The notes under the pieces were generated by a model. That model searched no databases. It was not told where the DNA came from and saw only the letters and a program-made list of their open reading frames with translations. This document shows positions 3,720 to 26,997 of a stretch of 35,513 nucleotides of DNA, piece after piece. The position numbers and the translations under genes were made by a program. This DNA comes from Actinomycetes bacterium (GTDB taxonomy: Bacteria; Actinomycetota; Thermoleophilia; Miltoncostaeales; Miltoncostaeaceae). The stretch covers positions 1 to 35,513 of the forward strand of contig JAHEIS010000011.1 in NCBI GenBank assembly GCA_024639225.1. The letters run 5' to 3'. Within the stretch, counting starts at the first letter, position 1. The number at the start of each line of letters is the position of its first letter.

Positions 3720-4487
3720 TCAGTCGCGCAGCTTGTACCCGCGACGGAACAGGCCCAGGGTCACTGCGAAGAGGATCACGTTGGCCGCCAGGAGCGCTGC
3801 GAAAGCGGCGAACACGTTCGTCTCCGACACCCCGAGGAAGCCGAAGCGGACCAGGTCGATCATGTAGTAGATCGGGTTGAACAGGGTCAGCGTGCTGTAC
3901 GGCTCCGGAAGTAGATCCACCGAGTAGAAGACGCCACCCAGAAAGATCAGCGGCTGGAGGACAAAGGTCTGCGCCAGAGCCACGTCATCGAACTGCTCCG
4001 CGCGCACCCCGACCAGGACGCCCAGTAGCGAGAAGAAGAAGCCGACGAGGATCAGCGACGGGATCAGCACCAGCGGCTCCGCGACCGGGAGATCGACCAA
4101 GAGCGCCGAGGCGCCGAAAGTCAGCAGGGCCACGATGCCCCCGCGAGCGAAACCTCCGAGGGCCATCGCCAGGAGCAGCTCCGCCGGGGAGGCCGGTGAG
4201 GAGAGCTGGTCCTGGATCGCGCCCTGGAACTTCTGCTGGAGGATGGACGAGGCGTTGTTGCTGAACGCGTTGATCGCCCAGGCCATCATGATCAGACCGG
4301 GGATCACGAAGATGATGTACTCGAAGCCCTGCAGCTCCTTGATGCGCGTGCCGAGCGCAGCACCGAACACCGAGATGTAGAGGAAGGTCTCGAGCAGGGG
4401 CGCGCCCAGGGTCTGGCGCTTGATCTTCATGAAGCGGCTGACCTCGCGGCGCCACAGCGAGAAGAACCTGATCTGGGCGGCGGTCAT
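3720..4487 (-). CDS. ABC-2 type transporter permease
   Basis: 255 aa with six predicted membrane helices, typical of ABC-2 exporter permeases (NodJ/YadH-like). Family-like stretches include FVIPGLIMMAWAINAFSNNASSILQQKFQGAIQDQLSSP in the first half and PLIFLGGVFYSVDLLPEPYSTLTLFNPIYYMIDLVR before the last helices. Its ATG shares an ATGA overlap with the stop of the ATPase gene just upstream, so the two subunits are translationally coupled. With that ATPase it should form a two-component efflux pump in the cytoplasmic membrane. The substrate cannot be read from the sequence; drugs, lipids or polysaccharides are typical for the family. Confidence 0.92.
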   Translation of the reverse strand: MTAAQIRFFSLWRREVSRFMKIKRQTLGAPLLETFLYISVFGAALGTRIKELQGFEYIIFVIPGLIMMAWAINAFSNNASSILQQKFQGAIQDQLSSPASPAELLLAMALGGFARGGIVALLTFGASALLVDLPVAEPLVLIPSLILVGFFFSLLGVLVGVRAEQFDDVALAQTFVLQPLIFLGGVFYSVDLLPEPYSTLTLFNPIYYMIDLVRFGFLGVSETNVFAAFAALLAANVILFAVTLGLFRRGYKLRD

Positions 4488-5272
4488 GAGGTGAACTCGT
4501 CCCCCGTCGAGCGCGACAGTTCCTTGCGGCCGACCAGCTCCAGGTAGGCGTCCTCGAGGTTGGCCACTCCGTAGCGCTGAGACAGATCGGCGCTCGTCCC
4601 CTGGGCCACGATTTCACCGTGGTTGATGAAGGCGATCTTGTCGCAGAGCTGCTCGGCCTCCTCCAGGTAGTGCGTCGTCAGCAGGATCGTCGTGCCCTGC
4701 CGATTGATGTCGCGGACGTAGTGCCAGAGCTCCAGTCGCAGCTCGATGTCGACGCCGGCGGTTGGCTCGTCGAGGATCAGCAGCCGCGGCCGGTGCATCA
4801 GCGCCCGGGCCAGGATGAGCCGCCGCTTCATCCCGCCCGAGAGCAGGCGCGTGCGGTCCTTGCGCTTCTCGGTCAGCGAGAAGGTCTCGAGCATCTCGTC
4901 GGTCCGCTCACGCCGCTCGGCGCGGGGCATGCCGAAGTAGCCGGCGTGGTAGTCGAGCGTCTCCTCGACGGTGAGGAACCAGTCGATGTTGAGCTCCTGG
5001 GGAGCCAGGCCGACCGCCTGGCGGGCCAGGCCGTAGTCATGCAGAGCGTCGTGCCCGAAGACCTCGACCACCCCGGATGTCGGCTGCGCCAGCCCGGTCG
5101 AGCAATGGATCAGGGTGGACTTGCCGGCGCCGTTCGGACCGAGAAGACCGAAGAACTCGCCCGGCTGCACGTCGAGCGCGACTCCGCGCAACGCCTCGAC
5201 GCCGTTCGCGTAGCGCTTGACGAGGCCATCGACGTGGAGCGCCGCGGAGCCAGAGGTGTGCGCGTCGGTCAA
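4484..5272 (-). CDS. ABC transporter ATP-binding protein
   Basis: 262 aa, single ABC ATPase domain. Walker A GPNGAGKST at about residues 45-53, Q-loop APQELNID, signature LLSGGMKRR, Walker B LLILDEPTAGVD and H-loop TTHYLEEAEQL are all intact. It resembles the drug/lipid exporter group (CcmA/DrrA type). It is paired with the ABC-2 permease through an ATGA overlap. The frame is open far upstream, but that part belongs to another, degraded gene; the first conserved residues (LHVDGLVKRYANGVEAL) begin about 12 codons after the TTG at 5272, the only suitable start. A decayed copy of this gene's 5' end lies at 8367-8474. Confidence 0.93.
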   Translation of the reverse strand: MTDAHTSGSAALHVDGLVKRYANGVEALRGVALDVQPGEFFGLLGPNGAGKSTLIHCSTGLAQPTSGVVEVFGHDALHDYGLARQAVGLAPQELNIDWFLTVEETLDYHAGYFGMPRAERRERTDEMLETFSLTEKRKDRTRLLSGGMKRRLILARALMHRPRLLILDEPTAGVDIELRLELWHYVRDINRQGTTILLTTHYLEEAEQLCDKIAFINHGEIVAQGTSADLSQRYGVANLEDAYLELVGRKELSRSTGDEFTS

Positions 5273-5360
5273 GACTCGGCACGGTAGCGCAGCGCGCCTG
5301 TCGCCTGTCGCCGGTCGTCGCGGCGGCGCCGGGGGCCCGCTCGCTGCCGGCCCCCGGTTC

Positions 5361-5656
5361 TCAGCGACCCGTCCGGCGTGCCTGGGGAGTCTCACCCTCC
5401 TTCGGCGCGCGCTCCTCCTCCACCGTTGCGCAGACCGCGTCGATCGTGATCTCGTTCGCTGCGCTCGGCCGTTGAAGCGCACCTGCCAGCCGTCGCCGGT
5501 GTCGGCGGGCCGCGTCTCCCGCATGGCGACTGCGGGCGGATTGCGAGTCCGGCCGCCACCGCCGATCACCTTCGTGCCGGTGGGGCAGGTCGCCACGAAC
5601 GTGGCCCTGCAGCTCGCCGCCGTTGCCCGAGACCTGCGCCTGCTCTTCGCGGACAT
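5361..5656 (-). pseudogene. Remnant of a secreted Cys-rich 'CPxGTKVIGGG' protein, frameshifted
   Basis: Three protein fragments of one recognisable pattern follow each other in alternating frames. First comes AQVSGNGGELQ. Then, after one extra G in the GGG at 5605-5607, comes ATFVATCPTGTKVIGGGG to GDGWQVRFNG in the next frame. Then, after a shift of one base near 5464-5475, comes NEITIDAVCATVEEER back in the first frame, ending at the stop at 5361. Actinobacterial exported proteins often end in such a CPAGTKVIGGG ... GW ... AVCA module. No signal peptide is visible, so the 5' end also seems lost. The two shifts compensate each other. A sequencing error is possible; otherwise this is a decaying gene. 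Confidence 0.5.
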
Positions 5657-5751
5657 GATTGATGGGTGCGTTCTTCTGTTGGTCCGGATCGGGTGAGGCT
5701 CTCCGACGCGACGTAATAGGTTCCCGTTCGACGCGACGAAGGATTACCTCG

Positions 5752-8175
5752 GTGAACAACACGGGATCGGACGCCGGCCTGCGCATCGGCCTGCGGGTCG
5801 CCCAGTACGGGCGCAGCTGGCCAGAACTGGAGCGGGCCGCGCTTCGCGCCGAGCAGCTCGGGTTCCACTGCCTCTGGGTGAACGATCACCTCCGCACGCC
5901 CGGGCGGCTCCACGCCACCCCGGCCTTCGACGCGTTCACCGCCCTGGGCGGCCTCGCGCGGTCGACGCGTCGCGTCGACCTCGGAACGATGGTCCTCTCG
6001 GCGTCGTACCGACCGGCGGCGGTCGCGGCCAAGATGCTGAGCGGTATCTCCGCGATCGCCGGCGGTCGCCTCGTGGTGGGGCTCGGTACCGGGTCTGATC
6101 GCGCCGAACACGCGGCGTACGGGATCCCGTTCGCCGACCCCGGAGAGCGCGCCGACCAGCTCGAGACCACCTTCGCGGTCATCCGGGAAATGTTCGGATC
6201 GCCCCGGGGGGCCGCGGCACCCGGGCTCGGAACCGGCGCGGTCAACCTGCCGGCCCCGGTCCCGGCCCCACTGCTGATCGCGGCGAACCATGGTCGCCTG
6301 CTGAGCTTCGCCGGGCGCGAGGCCGACGGCATCGTCGTCGCCTTCACCGATCCCGACGGGGTCGCGCAGCGGCGCGAGATTGCGCTTGCCGAGCGCAAGG
6401 ACGGCCACCATCTGCGCTGCGTTCTCTACGTCTACGTGCTGCCGCGCGATGAGCCCCGCGAGGCGGACCGATGGTTGCGGGACGAAGCCGCGGCCCTCGG
6501 CACCACCCCCGCCCGGCTGACGCGCTGGCTGGGCACCCGGGGGCTGGTGGGAGATGCATCCGAGATCCGACAGCAACTCGACGAGCACGCACAGGCGGGC
6601 GTGGACGAGGTGGCCCTCGTGCTCCCCAATCTGATCCCTGACGAGGCGATCGATGCTCTCGCCGACGCCGTCCTCCCCACTCCCCCTCCGCCTCCGGTGC
6701 CCGCCGCGGACGTCCGCTCAGCCCCGCGGGCGAACCTCGTCGACCTCCTCGTCGAATCGCACCGGCGCGCCGGGCGCGGCGGACAGCTCGCGGCCGTCGA
6801 GGGCGATGATCGCCGGAGCTTCGACGATCTGGCTGAACGGGCATCAGTCGCGGCGGGTGCCCTCTCACGGGCGGGCGTGCGACGGGGCGACCGCGTCGCC
6901 ATCCTCCTGCCGGACGGCCTCGCTTGGCTCGACGCGACCCTCGGTGCGCTCTGGCTCGGCGCGGTCGTGGTCCCGCTCGATCCGGCCATGCCGCCCGAGC
7001 GCCGCAGCGCTGCGCTTGATGACTGCACGCCTGCCGCGATCGTCCAGGCCGGGGCCGAGCCGGGCTGCCTCACGCCCGACGATCTGGACGGGCCTGCCGG
7101 CCCGCCGATCTCGGGGGTGCTGCCCGACGACCTCGCCTACCTCATCTACTCGTCAGGCTCCACGGGCCGGCCGAAGGCGGCCATGCACGCCCATGCCGAT
7201 CCGGCCTTCAGCGTTGAGAGCTACGCCCGCGGTGTCCTTGGGCTGACCGAGGACGATCGATGTCACTCGGTGGCGGGCCTCTTCACCTCTCTGGGTTTCG
7301 GGAACGGCTTCTTCCGCCCCCTTGGCGCGGGCGCGGCCGTGGTGCTCAGCCCGCGCCGGCCGACCGTGCGCTCCGTGCTCGACACGGTCGCGCGCGACAG
7401 GGTCAGCGTGCTCACGGCAGTGCCGACCTTCTGGAGCCAACTCGCGCGATTCCTGGCCCGACACCCGAATGAGGGCTCGCTCGGCGACGTGCGCCGTGCC
7501 GTCTCCTCGGGCGAGAGCCTTCCCGCGTTGGTCGCCGATGATCTCCGCCGCGTAGCGGGGCTCGAGCTGCTCGAGGGGCTCGGCTGCTCGGAATGCTCGA
7601 ACACCTTCATCTCCACCCGACCGGGCGAGCCGATGCCGGGCCTCATCGGCCGACCGGTCAACGGCGTCGAGCTCCGCCTGACCGACGAGGGCGGCACGGA
7701 CGTCGAGCGCGGAGAGGCCGGCCGGCTCTGGGTGCGGAGCCCGTCGAACACGACCGGCTACTGGCGTCGTCGTGAACTCAGCCGGGAGACGGTCCACGGC
7801 GAGTGGTTGCGCCTCGGCGACGTGCTCCGTGAGGTCGAGCCCGGCGTCTACCGCCACGTCGGCCGGGCCGACGCCCGCTTCAAGGTGGACGCCAAGTGGG
7901 TGAACCCGCCGGAGATCGAGGCGGCGCTTCTCGACGAACCCGCGGTCGCGGAGGTGGCCGTCGTCGAGACGCAGGACGCCCGGGGACTCTCGCGCGTCCT
8001 GGCCCACCTCGTCGCCGCCGCCGGGCACAAGCCGGTCGACGATGCGGTCCTGCGCCGGCGCGTCGCGGCCGAGGCCGGGATCCACGCGGCGCCGGCGCGC
8101 TGCATCTGGCATCCGGAGCTTCCCCGCCTGCCCTCGGGAAAGCTTGACCGTCAGGCGCTGAGCGCACTGGACTGA
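5752..8175 (+). CDS. Fusion: LLM-class flavin oxidoreductase + benzoate-CoA-ligase-type adenylating enzyme
   Basis: 807 aa. Residues about 9-300 are a luciferase-like (LLM) TIM barrel of the F420/FMN type, with a conserved AGGRLVVGLGTGSDRAEH core. A Pro-rich linker (about 307-325) joins it to an ANL-superfamily enzyme. The ANL part has A3 YSSGSTGRPK (466-475), the A5-like GLGCSECSN, A7-like LRLGD, A8 GRADARFKVDAKWV (from 704) and A10 PSGKLDR with catalytic K797. The YARGVLGLTEDDRCHSVAGLF and SSGESLP stretches point to the benzoate-CoA ligase group. No carrier-protein domain follows. The GTG start has GAAGGA eight bases upstream. The enzyme could activate an aromatic acid that is then oxidised, or the reverse; the substrate is unknown. 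Confidence 0.9.
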   Translation: MNNTGSDAGLRIGLRVAQYGRSWPELERAALRAEQLGFHCLWVNDHLRTPGRLHATPAFDAFTALGGLARSTRRVDLGTMVLSASYRPAAVAAKMLSGISAIAGGRLVVGLGTGSDRAEHAAYGIPFADPGERADQLETTFAVIREMFGSPRGAAAPGLGTGAVNLPAPVPAPLLIAANHGRLLSFAGREADGIVVAFTDPDGVAQRREIALAERKDGHHLRCVLYVYVLPRDEPREADRWLRDEAAALGTTPARLTRWLGTRGLVGDASEIRQQLDEHAQAGVDEVALVLPNLIPDEAIDALADAVLPTPPPPPVPAADVRSAPRANLVDLLVESHRRAGRGGQLAAVEGDDRRSFDDLAERASVAAGALSRAGVRRGDRVAILLPDGLAWLDATLGALWLGAVVVPLDPAMPPERRSAALDDCTPAAIVQAGAEPGCLTPDDLDGPAGPPISGVLPDDLAYLIYSSGSTGRPKAAMHAHADPAFSVESYARGVLGLTEDDRCHSVAGLFTSLGFGNGFFRPLGAGAAVVLSPRRPTVRSVLDTVARDRVSVLTAVPTFWSQLARFLARHPNEGSLGDVRRAVSSGESLPALVADDLRRVAGLELLEGLGCSECSNTFISTRPGEPMPGLIGRPVNGVELRLTDEGGTDVERGEAGRLWVRSPSNTTGYWRRRELSRETVHGEWLRLGDVLREVEPGVYRHVGRADARFKVDAKWVNPPEIEAALLDEPAVAEVAVVETQDARGLSRVLAHLVAAAGHKPVDDAVLRRRVAAEAGIHAAPARCIWHPELPRLPSGKLDRQALSALD

Positions 8176-8590: not shown

Positions 8591-8992
8591 ATGCCCGCAG
8601 TCGTCGCGCCACTGCTCGCCATTAGCTTCGGTGAGTTCCTGTGGTCCCTGCTGATCATCTACTTCATGATCATCTTTTTCGTCATCCTGTTCCAAGTCAT
8701 CATCGACGTCTTCCAGAGCCCCGATCTCACAGGCTGGGGCAAGGCCGGTTGGACGATTCTGATCTTCGTTGTCCCCTTGATCGGCCTCCTTGCCTACGTG
8801 ATCGCACGCGGTGACAACATGCACCGTCGGCGCGCCCAGGCCGCGAGCGACAGCCAGCAGGCCTTCGACGACTACGTCCGGGACGTCGCCGGCGGAACCG
8901 CGGCGGAGATCGCCGAGGCGAAGAAGCTCCTGGATGCCGGTGCGATCAGCGACGACGAGTTCCAGGCGATCAAGCAGAAGGCCCTCGCCTAG
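8591..8992 (+). CDS. SHOCT-domain membrane protein (PLDc_N-like + SHOCT)
   Basis: 133 aa. Two membrane helices (about 14-40 and 53-73) resemble the PLDc_N/cardiolipin-synthase N-terminal unit, ending in GLLAYVIARGDNM. A short linker leads to a C-terminal SHOCT motif (about 104-132: AAEIAEAKKLLDAGAISDDEFQAIK), a small helical pair thought to mediate oligomerisation or binding. Such proteins are common in Actinomycetota, and their role is unknown. The ATG at 8591 has GAAAGG a few bases upstream; the longer open frame upstream lacks conserved residues. The gene runs toward the MFS exporter and shares a hairpin terminator with it. Confidence 0.88.
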   Translation: MPAVVAPLLAISFGEFLWSLLIIYFMIIFFVILFQVIIDVFQSPDLTGWGKAGWTILIFVVPLIGLLAYVIARGDNMHRRRAQAASDSQQAFDDYVRDVAGGTAAEIAEAKKLLDAGAISDDEFQAIKQKALA

Positions 8993-9019: not shown

Positions 9020-9046
9020 CCCCGGCAGGAGCTATTCCTGCCGGGG
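9020..9046. terminator. Bidirectional hairpin between convergent genes
   Basis: Perfect 11-bp stem CCCCGGCAGGA / TCCTGCCGGGG with a 5-base loop (9031-9035). It lies between the SHOCT gene stop (8992) and the MFS gene, whose stop codon falls in and next to the loop. There is no clear T-run, so this is a structural call. Confidence 0.65.
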
Positions 9047-10636
9047 TGCCGGCACGGCCTCACCCGTCGGCCGGGCCGGCAGGTGGCGCGTGAACATGAG
9101 CGACAGCAGGCTCAGCAGCGCCGCGATGAGCAGTCCGGTCTTCAGTGCAGTCAACTGTGACTCTTCGTAACCCTCGACGAGCGCGTTGACCGTCGGCTCG
9201 TCCACACCGGCCTCACGGGCGCCGTCCCTGACGAGATCCGAGGCCACGAAACTGACGTCCCCTTCGAGGACGATGCTCACCTGATCCCGGACGGGGGCGG
9301 CGATCCGGGGGTCGTTCTCGACGTTTGTCAGGAAGGCTGTCAGGAGTCCACTGATGACCACGGCGCCGACGAGTGCCGTCCCGAGGGACGAGCCGAGCTG
9401 TTGGGCGGTGAACTGCAGACCCCCCGCTTCGCTGCGGTCATTCTCCGCGACCGACGACTGGACGATGTTCCCGATCTGCGAGGCGATCAGCCCCATGCCG
9501 ATGCCGAGAACACCCATGGCCATGCCGAACGTGAGGTTGTTCAACTCGGCGTCAACGGTTCCCAGCAGCGCGAGGCAGGCCACGAGCATGACCACGAACC
9601 CGGCCCTCACGATCGTGCGCGCTGACCAGCGCGAGGCCAGCACCGAACCGGCCATCGCCGTGATGAACAGCGTGACCGAGACCGGCAGCATCCTCACGCC
9701 TGTCTCGAATGCGTCGAGACCCTGAACGATCTGGAGATAGAGCGGGATCGCGAAGAAGACCCCCATCAGGATCAGGTTTTGCGACGCGGCGGTCGTGAGC
9801 CCGGCGCGCAACGGCGCCTGGGCGAAGAGATGCATGTGCACGAGGGGGTCCTCACCGCGCGATTCCCGCCTGCGTTGCCAGTTCCCGAAGATCCACAGCA
9901 GCACGATCCCGCCCGCCACCACGAACGGCGTGGGCGAGAAGCCCACGACCTCGAAGGGCGGATTGCGCGGCGTCAGCCAGCCCCAGCTCGTCGCCTGGAG
10001 AACGCCGAAGACGATCAGGCAGAGCCCCGCCGCGGACAGGGCCGCCCCGACCCCGTCGAGGCGGGAAGTCTTCGCCGCCTTCGCAGGCGCGGGGATGAGC
10101 ATCGGCGCCGCGATGATCACTGCGGCAGCCACGCCGACCTCGCCGACGAACACCAGCCTCCACGTGAGGTTGGCGGTCACCCATCCGCCCAGGAGCGGGC
10201 CGATCGCGATGCCCGCCCCAGCCACCCCGCCGAGGACTCCGAAGGCAAGCGCCCGGTCCCGGCCCTGGTAGCTGCTGGCGGTCAGCGCGACGAGCGCCGG
10301 GAGCACGAGGGCCGCACCGATGCCTTCGAGAAGCGACCAGCCAACCAGCAGCGCGGGGATGCTCCAGGACACCGCCGTTAGCGCCGAGCCCAGCGCGTAG
10401 ATGACGTGTCCGGCCACGAAGATGCGCCGGCGCCCCAGCAGGTCGCCCAGCTTGCCCCCGACGAGCATCAGCGCGGCCATGACCAGGGTGTAGAAGGTGA
10501 TTACGGCCTGGATGGTCGTGACCGAGGAGTCAAAGTCCTCGACCAGCTGACTGATCGAGACGTTCATCACCGCCTGGTCCAGGACCATCAGGAACTGGGC
10601 CGCCGCGAGCACGATCAGGGGTCCCCACCTGCCCAT
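9032..10636 (-). CDS. MFS drug/proton antiporter, DHA2 (EmrB/QacA) family, 14 helices
   Basis: 534 aa, the usual length for 14-TM DHA2 exporters. Visible family marks are the first helix with FLMVLDQAVMNVSI (motif D1-like), motif A GGKLGDLLGRRR between helices 2 and 3, and motif C GVLGGVAGAGIAIGPLLGGW in helix 5. It probably exports small toxic compounds or metabolites by proton antiport. The C-terminal end is encoded within the shared hairpin terminator. It diverges from the Vps62-like gene; the roughly 200 bases between them should hold both promoters, but I see no clear operator. No regulator gene is adjacent. Substrate unknown. Confidence 0.92.
   Translation of the reverse strand: MGRWGPLIVLAAAQFLMVLDQAVMNVSISQLVEDFDSSVTTIQAVITFYTLVMAALMLVGGKLGDLLGRRRIFVAGHVIYALGSALTAVSWSIPALLVGWSLLEGIGAALVLPALVALTASSYQGRDRALAFGVLGGVAGAGIAIGPLLGGWVTANLTWRLVFVGEVGVAAAVIIAAPMLIPAPAKAAKTSRLDGVGAALSAAGLCLIVFGVLQATSWGWLTPRNPPFEVVGFSPTPFVVAGGIVLLWIFGNWQRRRESRGEDPLVHMHLFAQAPLRAGLTTAASQNLILMGVFFAIPLYLQIVQGLDAFETGVRMLPVSVTLFITAMAGSVLASRWSARTIVRAGFVVMLVACLALLGTVDAELNNLTFGMAMGVLGIGMGLIASQIGNIVQSSVAENDRSEAGGLQFTAQQLGSSLGTALVGAVVISGLLTAFLTNVENDPRIAAPVRDQVSIVLEGDVSFVASDLVRDGAREAGVDEPTVNALVEGYEESQLTALKTGLLIAALLSLLSLMFTRHLPARPTGEAVPAPRQE

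Positions 10637-22446: not shown

Positions 22447-26997
<4,551 letters not shown>

Follow-up and report, generated by a model that had tools for sequence, protein, structure and literature searches.

A 35,513-nt stretch of DNA from a Miltoncostaeaceae assembly (the window) carries a gene that appeared, in a first-pass annotation, to fuse a luciferase-like (LLM) oxidoreductase to an ANL enzyme of the benzoate-CoA-ligase type. This raises the question of whether the two halves form one genuine protein and, if so, which reaction would bring a redox barrel and an acid-activating enzyme together in one chain.

A complete two-domain protein of the Miltoncostaeaceae

The open frame extends over 5659..8175 on the forward strand with zero internal stops. 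A GTG at 5752, with AAGGA just 5' of it, starts an 807-residue protein (5752..8175, +) whose N-terminus is in register with those of its relatives. Pfam identified three domains and no others: Bac_luciferase (residues 19–258, 112 bits against a cut-off of 27.9), AMP-binding (residues 342–671, 222 bits) and AMP-binding_C (residues 721–797, 39 bits). The LLM barrel occupies 5779..6666 (+) and the ANL enzyme, delimited by Pfam, family profile, PDB matches and structural model, covers residues 327–803 (6730..8160, +). Between them lies a Pro-rich linker (residues 311–326; 6682..6729, +), conserved among relatives in neither sequence nor length. An AlphaFold2 model from a 20-sequence alignment (mean pLDDT 82, pTM 0.59) contains eight LLM strands (β1–β8: residues 11–15, 40–43, 76–83, 107–112, 174–177, 193–197, 222–231 and 286–290), a disordered linker and a whole ANL fold; the model is good for each domain, and its pTM leaves their relative placement unfixed. 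A profile score above cut-off and an eight-strand (β/α)8 barrel assign the first half to the LLM superfamily (PF00296). The second half has both domains of the ANL superfamily (PF00501/PF13193), with the P-loop, A5 Glu, A7 Asp, A8 Arg and A10 Lys. The first-pass description of a single polypeptide with two complete halves and a Pro-rich hinge is thus borne out.

A frameshift or assembly join at about 6670–6730, separating two genes, was considered and ruled out, since the same single frame is kept in 30 Miltoncostaeaceae genomes. LLM domains occur inside NRPS/PKS assembly lines, where, as in the fusion, they stand beside an adenylate-forming domain. In contrast to those modules, the ANL half here is of the CoA-ligase rather than the amino-acid type, and carrier, condensation/ketosynthase and thioesterase domains are absent from the protein, as carrier, condensation and thioesterase domains are from its conserved neighbours (a helicase, LytR_C and hydrolases). 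With three Pfam domains only, the protein is not an NRPS fragment, and its earlier portrayal as a self-contained, non-NRPS enzyme is supported.

Three overlapping sets were searched for the fusion: 61 relatives, 399 genomes from the class and 397 from the phylum. Among 42 sampled Miltoncostaeaceae genomes, it is present in a single frame in 30, is cut by a contig end in six, is split into LLM and ANL genes in three (G005, G007 and G016) and was not found in three (G001, G013 and G022). Outside the family, no full-length fusion was found in ~700 other actinobacterial genomes; one full-length candidate, G735 (31% identity), is interrupted by a stop and is in fact two genes, LLM and then ANL. A plasmid search returned no full-length match, and a viral structure search no two-domain relative, its strong matches being ANL-only or LLM-only proteins. 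Each half belongs to a known superfamily, and the stand-alone combination was without a match in the open-access library searched, which covers few subscription journals.

The window protein is ~48–60% identical to its orthologues across ~800 residues, and the frame has therefore long been under selection. Of 163 alignment sites that are otherwise invariant, it differs at eight, more than any other row does. Trees of the LLM and ANL halves agree in placing it beside G008, G017 and the copy on contig C111. The LLM–ANL fusion is a real, complete, family-wide protein of Miltoncostaeaceae.

In the ANL tree, the sister of the fused clade is a group of single-domain Miltoncostaeaceae ANLs, most of which adjoin an SDR gene (L072–L075, L050:1546 and L056:16367; within ~0.5 kb in L050). 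Five sampled rows of these single-domain paralogues have Gly at the A8 Asp (position 707), a change that may mean altered or lost activity.

A canonical locus and a probable relocation

Clustering of the genes around fusion loci revealed a conserved arrangement: a DEAD/ResIII helicase gene reads away, and a LytR_C gene and the fusion gene are co-directional. On the 3' side, the convergent genes are of two kinds: an alpha/beta hydrolase with NnrE at some loci, and at others a HAD phosphatase beyond which lies UppP. None of these conserved neighbours is a pathway gene that would name the substrate. LytR_C, a single-pass membrane-protein gene, lies directly upstream of the LLM start wherever a canonical locus was read and overlaps the fusion gene by 4 nt in one genus. 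Long open reading frames at L044, L048, L050 and L056 had the appearance of in-frame LytR_C–LLM–ANL fusions and were ruled out as such, LytR_C being in a different frame.

This constant association would be expected if the fusion acted in the cell envelope as an enzyme partner of the LytR_C membrane protein. We regard that as distinctly improbable: neither the window copy nor the split genes of G007 and G016 have LytR_C next to them, which makes the LLM–ANL bond the tighter of the two, and LytR_C persists on contig C135 where the fusion is missing.

Contig C135 bears on the history of the window gene. The source assembly carries two helicase loci, on C111 and C135. C111 (L041) has the complete canonical unit, fusion included; relative to G017, its helicase is 93% and its fusion 84–90% identical. 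C135 (L129, 7137-11222) holds helicase, LytR_C, alpha/beta hydrolase and NnrE without LLM–ANL, a natural empty site where the convergent LytR_C and hydrolase genes end at 10356 and 10353, respectively. The two helicases are 75% identical to each other. The 73–75% identity of the C135 helicase is in line with that of the window-contig glutamate synthase, which occurs once in the assembly and shares 78% identity with the G017 version. Tetranucleotide usage, a weak signal on such short contigs, placed C71 closer to C135 (0.92) than to C111 (0.87), with 0.81 for C135–C111; the reported contamination of the assembly is 6.28%. An initial reading of the C111 gene as a second paralogue in the same organism was revised on the grounds of the duplicated helicase locus, the fusion-free C135 and the closeness of C111 to G017. 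C111 is probably foreign contamination. Because the canonical C135 locus lacks a fusion, the organism probably has no LLM–ANL gene other than that of the window; the combined evidence argues strongly that this gene was inherited vertically and moved beside a drug-type ABC exporter of the DrrA/NodI kind. The large subunit of glutamate synthase (window 22447-26997) itself occurs as two types in Miltoncostaeaceae, ~55–81% and ~34% identical to the window's.

At its present site, the fusion diverges from the DrrA/NodI-type ABC ATPase gene (4484..5656, −), whose true start is probably further in, since homology begins only at about residue 70; its partner is an ABC-2 permease gene (3720..4487, −). 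Homologues of the ATPase in relatives are 37–51% identical and are found on other contigs only. The upstream exporter pair of the first-pass annotation is therefore present, but it is divergent, shares no operon with the fusion and adjoins the relocated copy alone. What had been taken for exporter fossils on the far side are in fact an intact EmrB-type MFS exporter gene (9032-10636, −, 534 aa) and a small PLDc_N/SHOCT membrane-protein gene (8591-8992, +). In G014 (L057:1675) and G005 (L068:233), clustered relatives of the MFS gene also lie close to the fusion, which may be coincidence.

Active sites and cofactor

The ANL half keeps its ATP-site and catalytic residues: the alignment retains the SSGSTGRPK stretch with S468–K475, and E614, D690, R705, D707 and K797. 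The A3 P-loop region, YLIYSSGSTGRPKAAMHAH (7138..7194, +), and the catalytic Lys797 of A10 (8140..8142, +) are intact, as had been claimed. Among PDB sequences, benzoate- and anthranilate-CoA ligases are closest, and Foldseek places the model nearest to enzymes of the same two kinds (4rm3 and 4zjz, TM 0.85 by target). The best family is likewise benzoate-CoA ligase (TIGR02262), at 308.9 bits, under the cut-off of 375.25, which the C111 orthologue also misses (358.7 bits).

Ligases of this family (BadA, 4zjz/4rm3; with the anthranilate-CoA ligase AuaEII, 4wv3) share the ANL fold and the A3, A5, A7 and A10 residues with the fusion, which differs from them in its attached LLM and at three positions. 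The A4 aromatic, Phe, His or Trp in 45/45 outside relatives, is Thr (Thr512), rarely Ala, in the fused clade. A pocket His present in 42 of the 45 is Asn617, a clade-marking change, in the window protein; we equated this position with His333 of BadA through the PDB sequence match. The third change lies in the A8 motif, RADARFKVDAKWVNPPEIE (7864..7920, +), where Ala714 replaces the CoA-tunnel Gly, so that the protein departs from the aryl-CoA-ligase pattern Rx(D/K)x6G, whose Gly lines the pantetheine tunnel (PMC8388817). All 30 readable unsplit fused rows have Ala here, whereas Gly is retained in two of three split proteins and in 45/45 outside relatives. The label 'benzoate-CoA-ligase-type' thus holds for fold and nearest family, but not for the score or for residues 512, 617 and 714.

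Ala714 puts ordinary thioester formation in question. It is consistent with a reaction that activates first and then oxidises or reduces, without CoA: an acyl-AMP that is poorly thioesterified would pass, as the adenylate or a derived amide or ester, to the LLM site. The Gly409Leu exchange in 4-chlorobenzoate:CoA ligase, at the corresponding lining of the pantetheine tunnel, abolishes thioesterification alone (PMC6122825). Ala is far smaller than Leu and the milder change, the rows share ancestry, and four of five single-domain ANL paralogues of the family also have Ala at A8, so that the substitution is suggestive only. To our knowledge, no LLM enzyme is known to use an acyl-adenylate as substrate, which counts against this order. 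On balance, we consider it unlikely.

The LLM half scores best against F420-type families (TIGR03621 and TIGR03560) and misses every subfamily cut-off (116.3 bits for TIGR03621, cut-off 213.15). With LLM oxidoreductases such as Mer and fHMAD, it shares the complete barrel and the NDH motif (residues 44–46); it differs in its sub-cut-off scores, its attached ANL and its presence in genomes without F420 biosynthesis. As markers of that pathway, we scored CofG (TIGR03550) and CofD (TIGR01819) against their profile cut-offs. Both are above cut-off in the genome of the window, which, with the family matches, would suit an F420-dependent LLM reductase or dehydrogenase fused to a ligase. However, neither exceeds its cut-off in 11 genomes carrying the fusion or its contig-cut pieces (G002, G003, G004, G010, G011, G014, G015, G017, G019, G026 and G032). 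Completeness is 92% or more in seven of them, and the G011 assembly consists of one contig. Unless F420 is scavenged, a strict need for it is therefore unlikely, and the F420-dependent enzyme as a whole appears rather unlikely; the earlier suggestion of F420 dependence is weakened accordingly. FMN is the usual alternative to F420 for the LLM fold, and we infer that the LLM half most likely uses FMN.

LLM–ligase pairs and the proposed reaction

Related gene pairs exist outside the family. Among the neighbourhoods of ~40 single-domain ANL relatives from the class and phylum, five (L086, L099, L104, L105 and L123) have a separate LLM gene directly upstream of the ANL gene and co-directional with it, and an LLM gene is close by in L109, L094 and L097. 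The LLM–ANL gene pairs span three other families. At a rough expectation that LLMs make up well under 1% of genes, five pairs are more than chance, with L104 and L105 sharing a genus. They match the fusion in protein types and order and differ from it in being separate genes with ANLs of other clades. L104, L105, L109 and L123 are related clusters. L104 includes an acyl-CoA dehydrogenase gene and an anthraniloyl/salicylyl-CoA-type monooxygenase (825 bits to NF006101, under its 1078 cut-off), and L105 shows a partial match to tryptophan 2,3-dioxygenase. Reading by eye added a kynureninase-like gene in L105 and the corresponding genes of L109 and L123. By these sequence matches, one pair stands in what appears to be a tryptophan/anthranilate-CoA-type catabolic cluster; such genes are missing from Miltoncostaeaceae or lie elsewhere. 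Transfer of the anthranilate-CoA pathway from L104, L105 and L123 to this family is unsupported: in the ANL tree, the outside pairs are not sister to the fused clade, and the NF006101 enzyme is absent from Miltoncostaeaceae. An LLM tree that includes the outside LLMs lacks the resolution to show that the pairs share an ancestor.

In two Thermoleophilia families, a creatininase/MftE-like gene lies directly upstream of a benzoate-CoA-ligase-like ANL (L094 8884-9729; L097 5149-5895) with the LLM gene further upstream, a possible LLM–creatininase–ANL module.

The recurrence of the pairing in other families bears on whether the two activities might be independent, tethered by chance and sharing no metabolite. 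Such a tether would accommodate the unconserved linker and the separation of the halves in three genomes, by ~3.7 kb in G005; yet the fusion is kept in 30 genomes, and in G007 and G016 the LLM gene is still directly upstream of the ANL gene, making chance quite improbable.

Our preferred reading, held at a probability of about 0.4, is a bifunctional enzyme that couples an FMN-type redox domain to the adenylation of an aryl-like acid, oxidising before activating. For the catalysis, the cofactor, the aryl substrate, the order of steps and the acyl acceptor alike, what we infer is as follows. The LLM domain would make or modify the acid first in a redox step, most likely with FMN; the tethered ANL domain would then use ATP to adenylate the same metabolite, an aryl-type carboxylic acid or a similar small one, and the acyl-AMP would be converted to a thioester of CoA or some other acyl product. 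By analogy, the fusion would do in one chain what the LLM-then-ligase two-gene pairs do beside aryl-acid genes. We slightly prefer this order of steps. The reading is favoured because both domains are complete with ATP-site and catalytic residues kept; because the fusion is found in 30/42 family genomes and both trees co-place the window copy; because separate LLM genes directly precede ANL genes both within the family (G007 and G016) and outside it, with aryl-CoA catabolic genes in L104 and L105; and because the nearest folds are aryl-CoA ligases and 11 fusion genomes lack CofG and CofD. Against it count the closeness of the LLM half to F420-labelled families, the A8 Ala in 30/30 rows, contrary to an ordinary CoA ligase, the non-sister position of the outside pairs, the lack of the anthraniloyl/salicylyl-CoA monooxygenase in Miltoncostaeaceae, the missing substrate-naming neighbour and the unfixed placement of the halves in the model.

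The recurrence of LLM–ligase pairs elsewhere suggests that aryl-acid activation is linked to a redox step more often than annotations show. There is also a small chance, well below that of the preferred reading, that an acyl-adenylate, or a non-thioester product derived from it, is channelled directly to the flavin site in an ATP-driven, CoA-free reaction that is a core function of the family. If true, this would unite the superfamilies of firefly luciferase (ANL) and bacterial luciferase (LLM) in one chain. The tunnel Ala offers a handle on the acceptor, the genomes without CofG and CofD one on the cofactor, and the relocated copy one on genetic autonomy. As a near-universal family gene retained in genomes of 1.5–2 Mb, the fusion points to an unrecognised piece of Miltoncostaeaceae metabolism.
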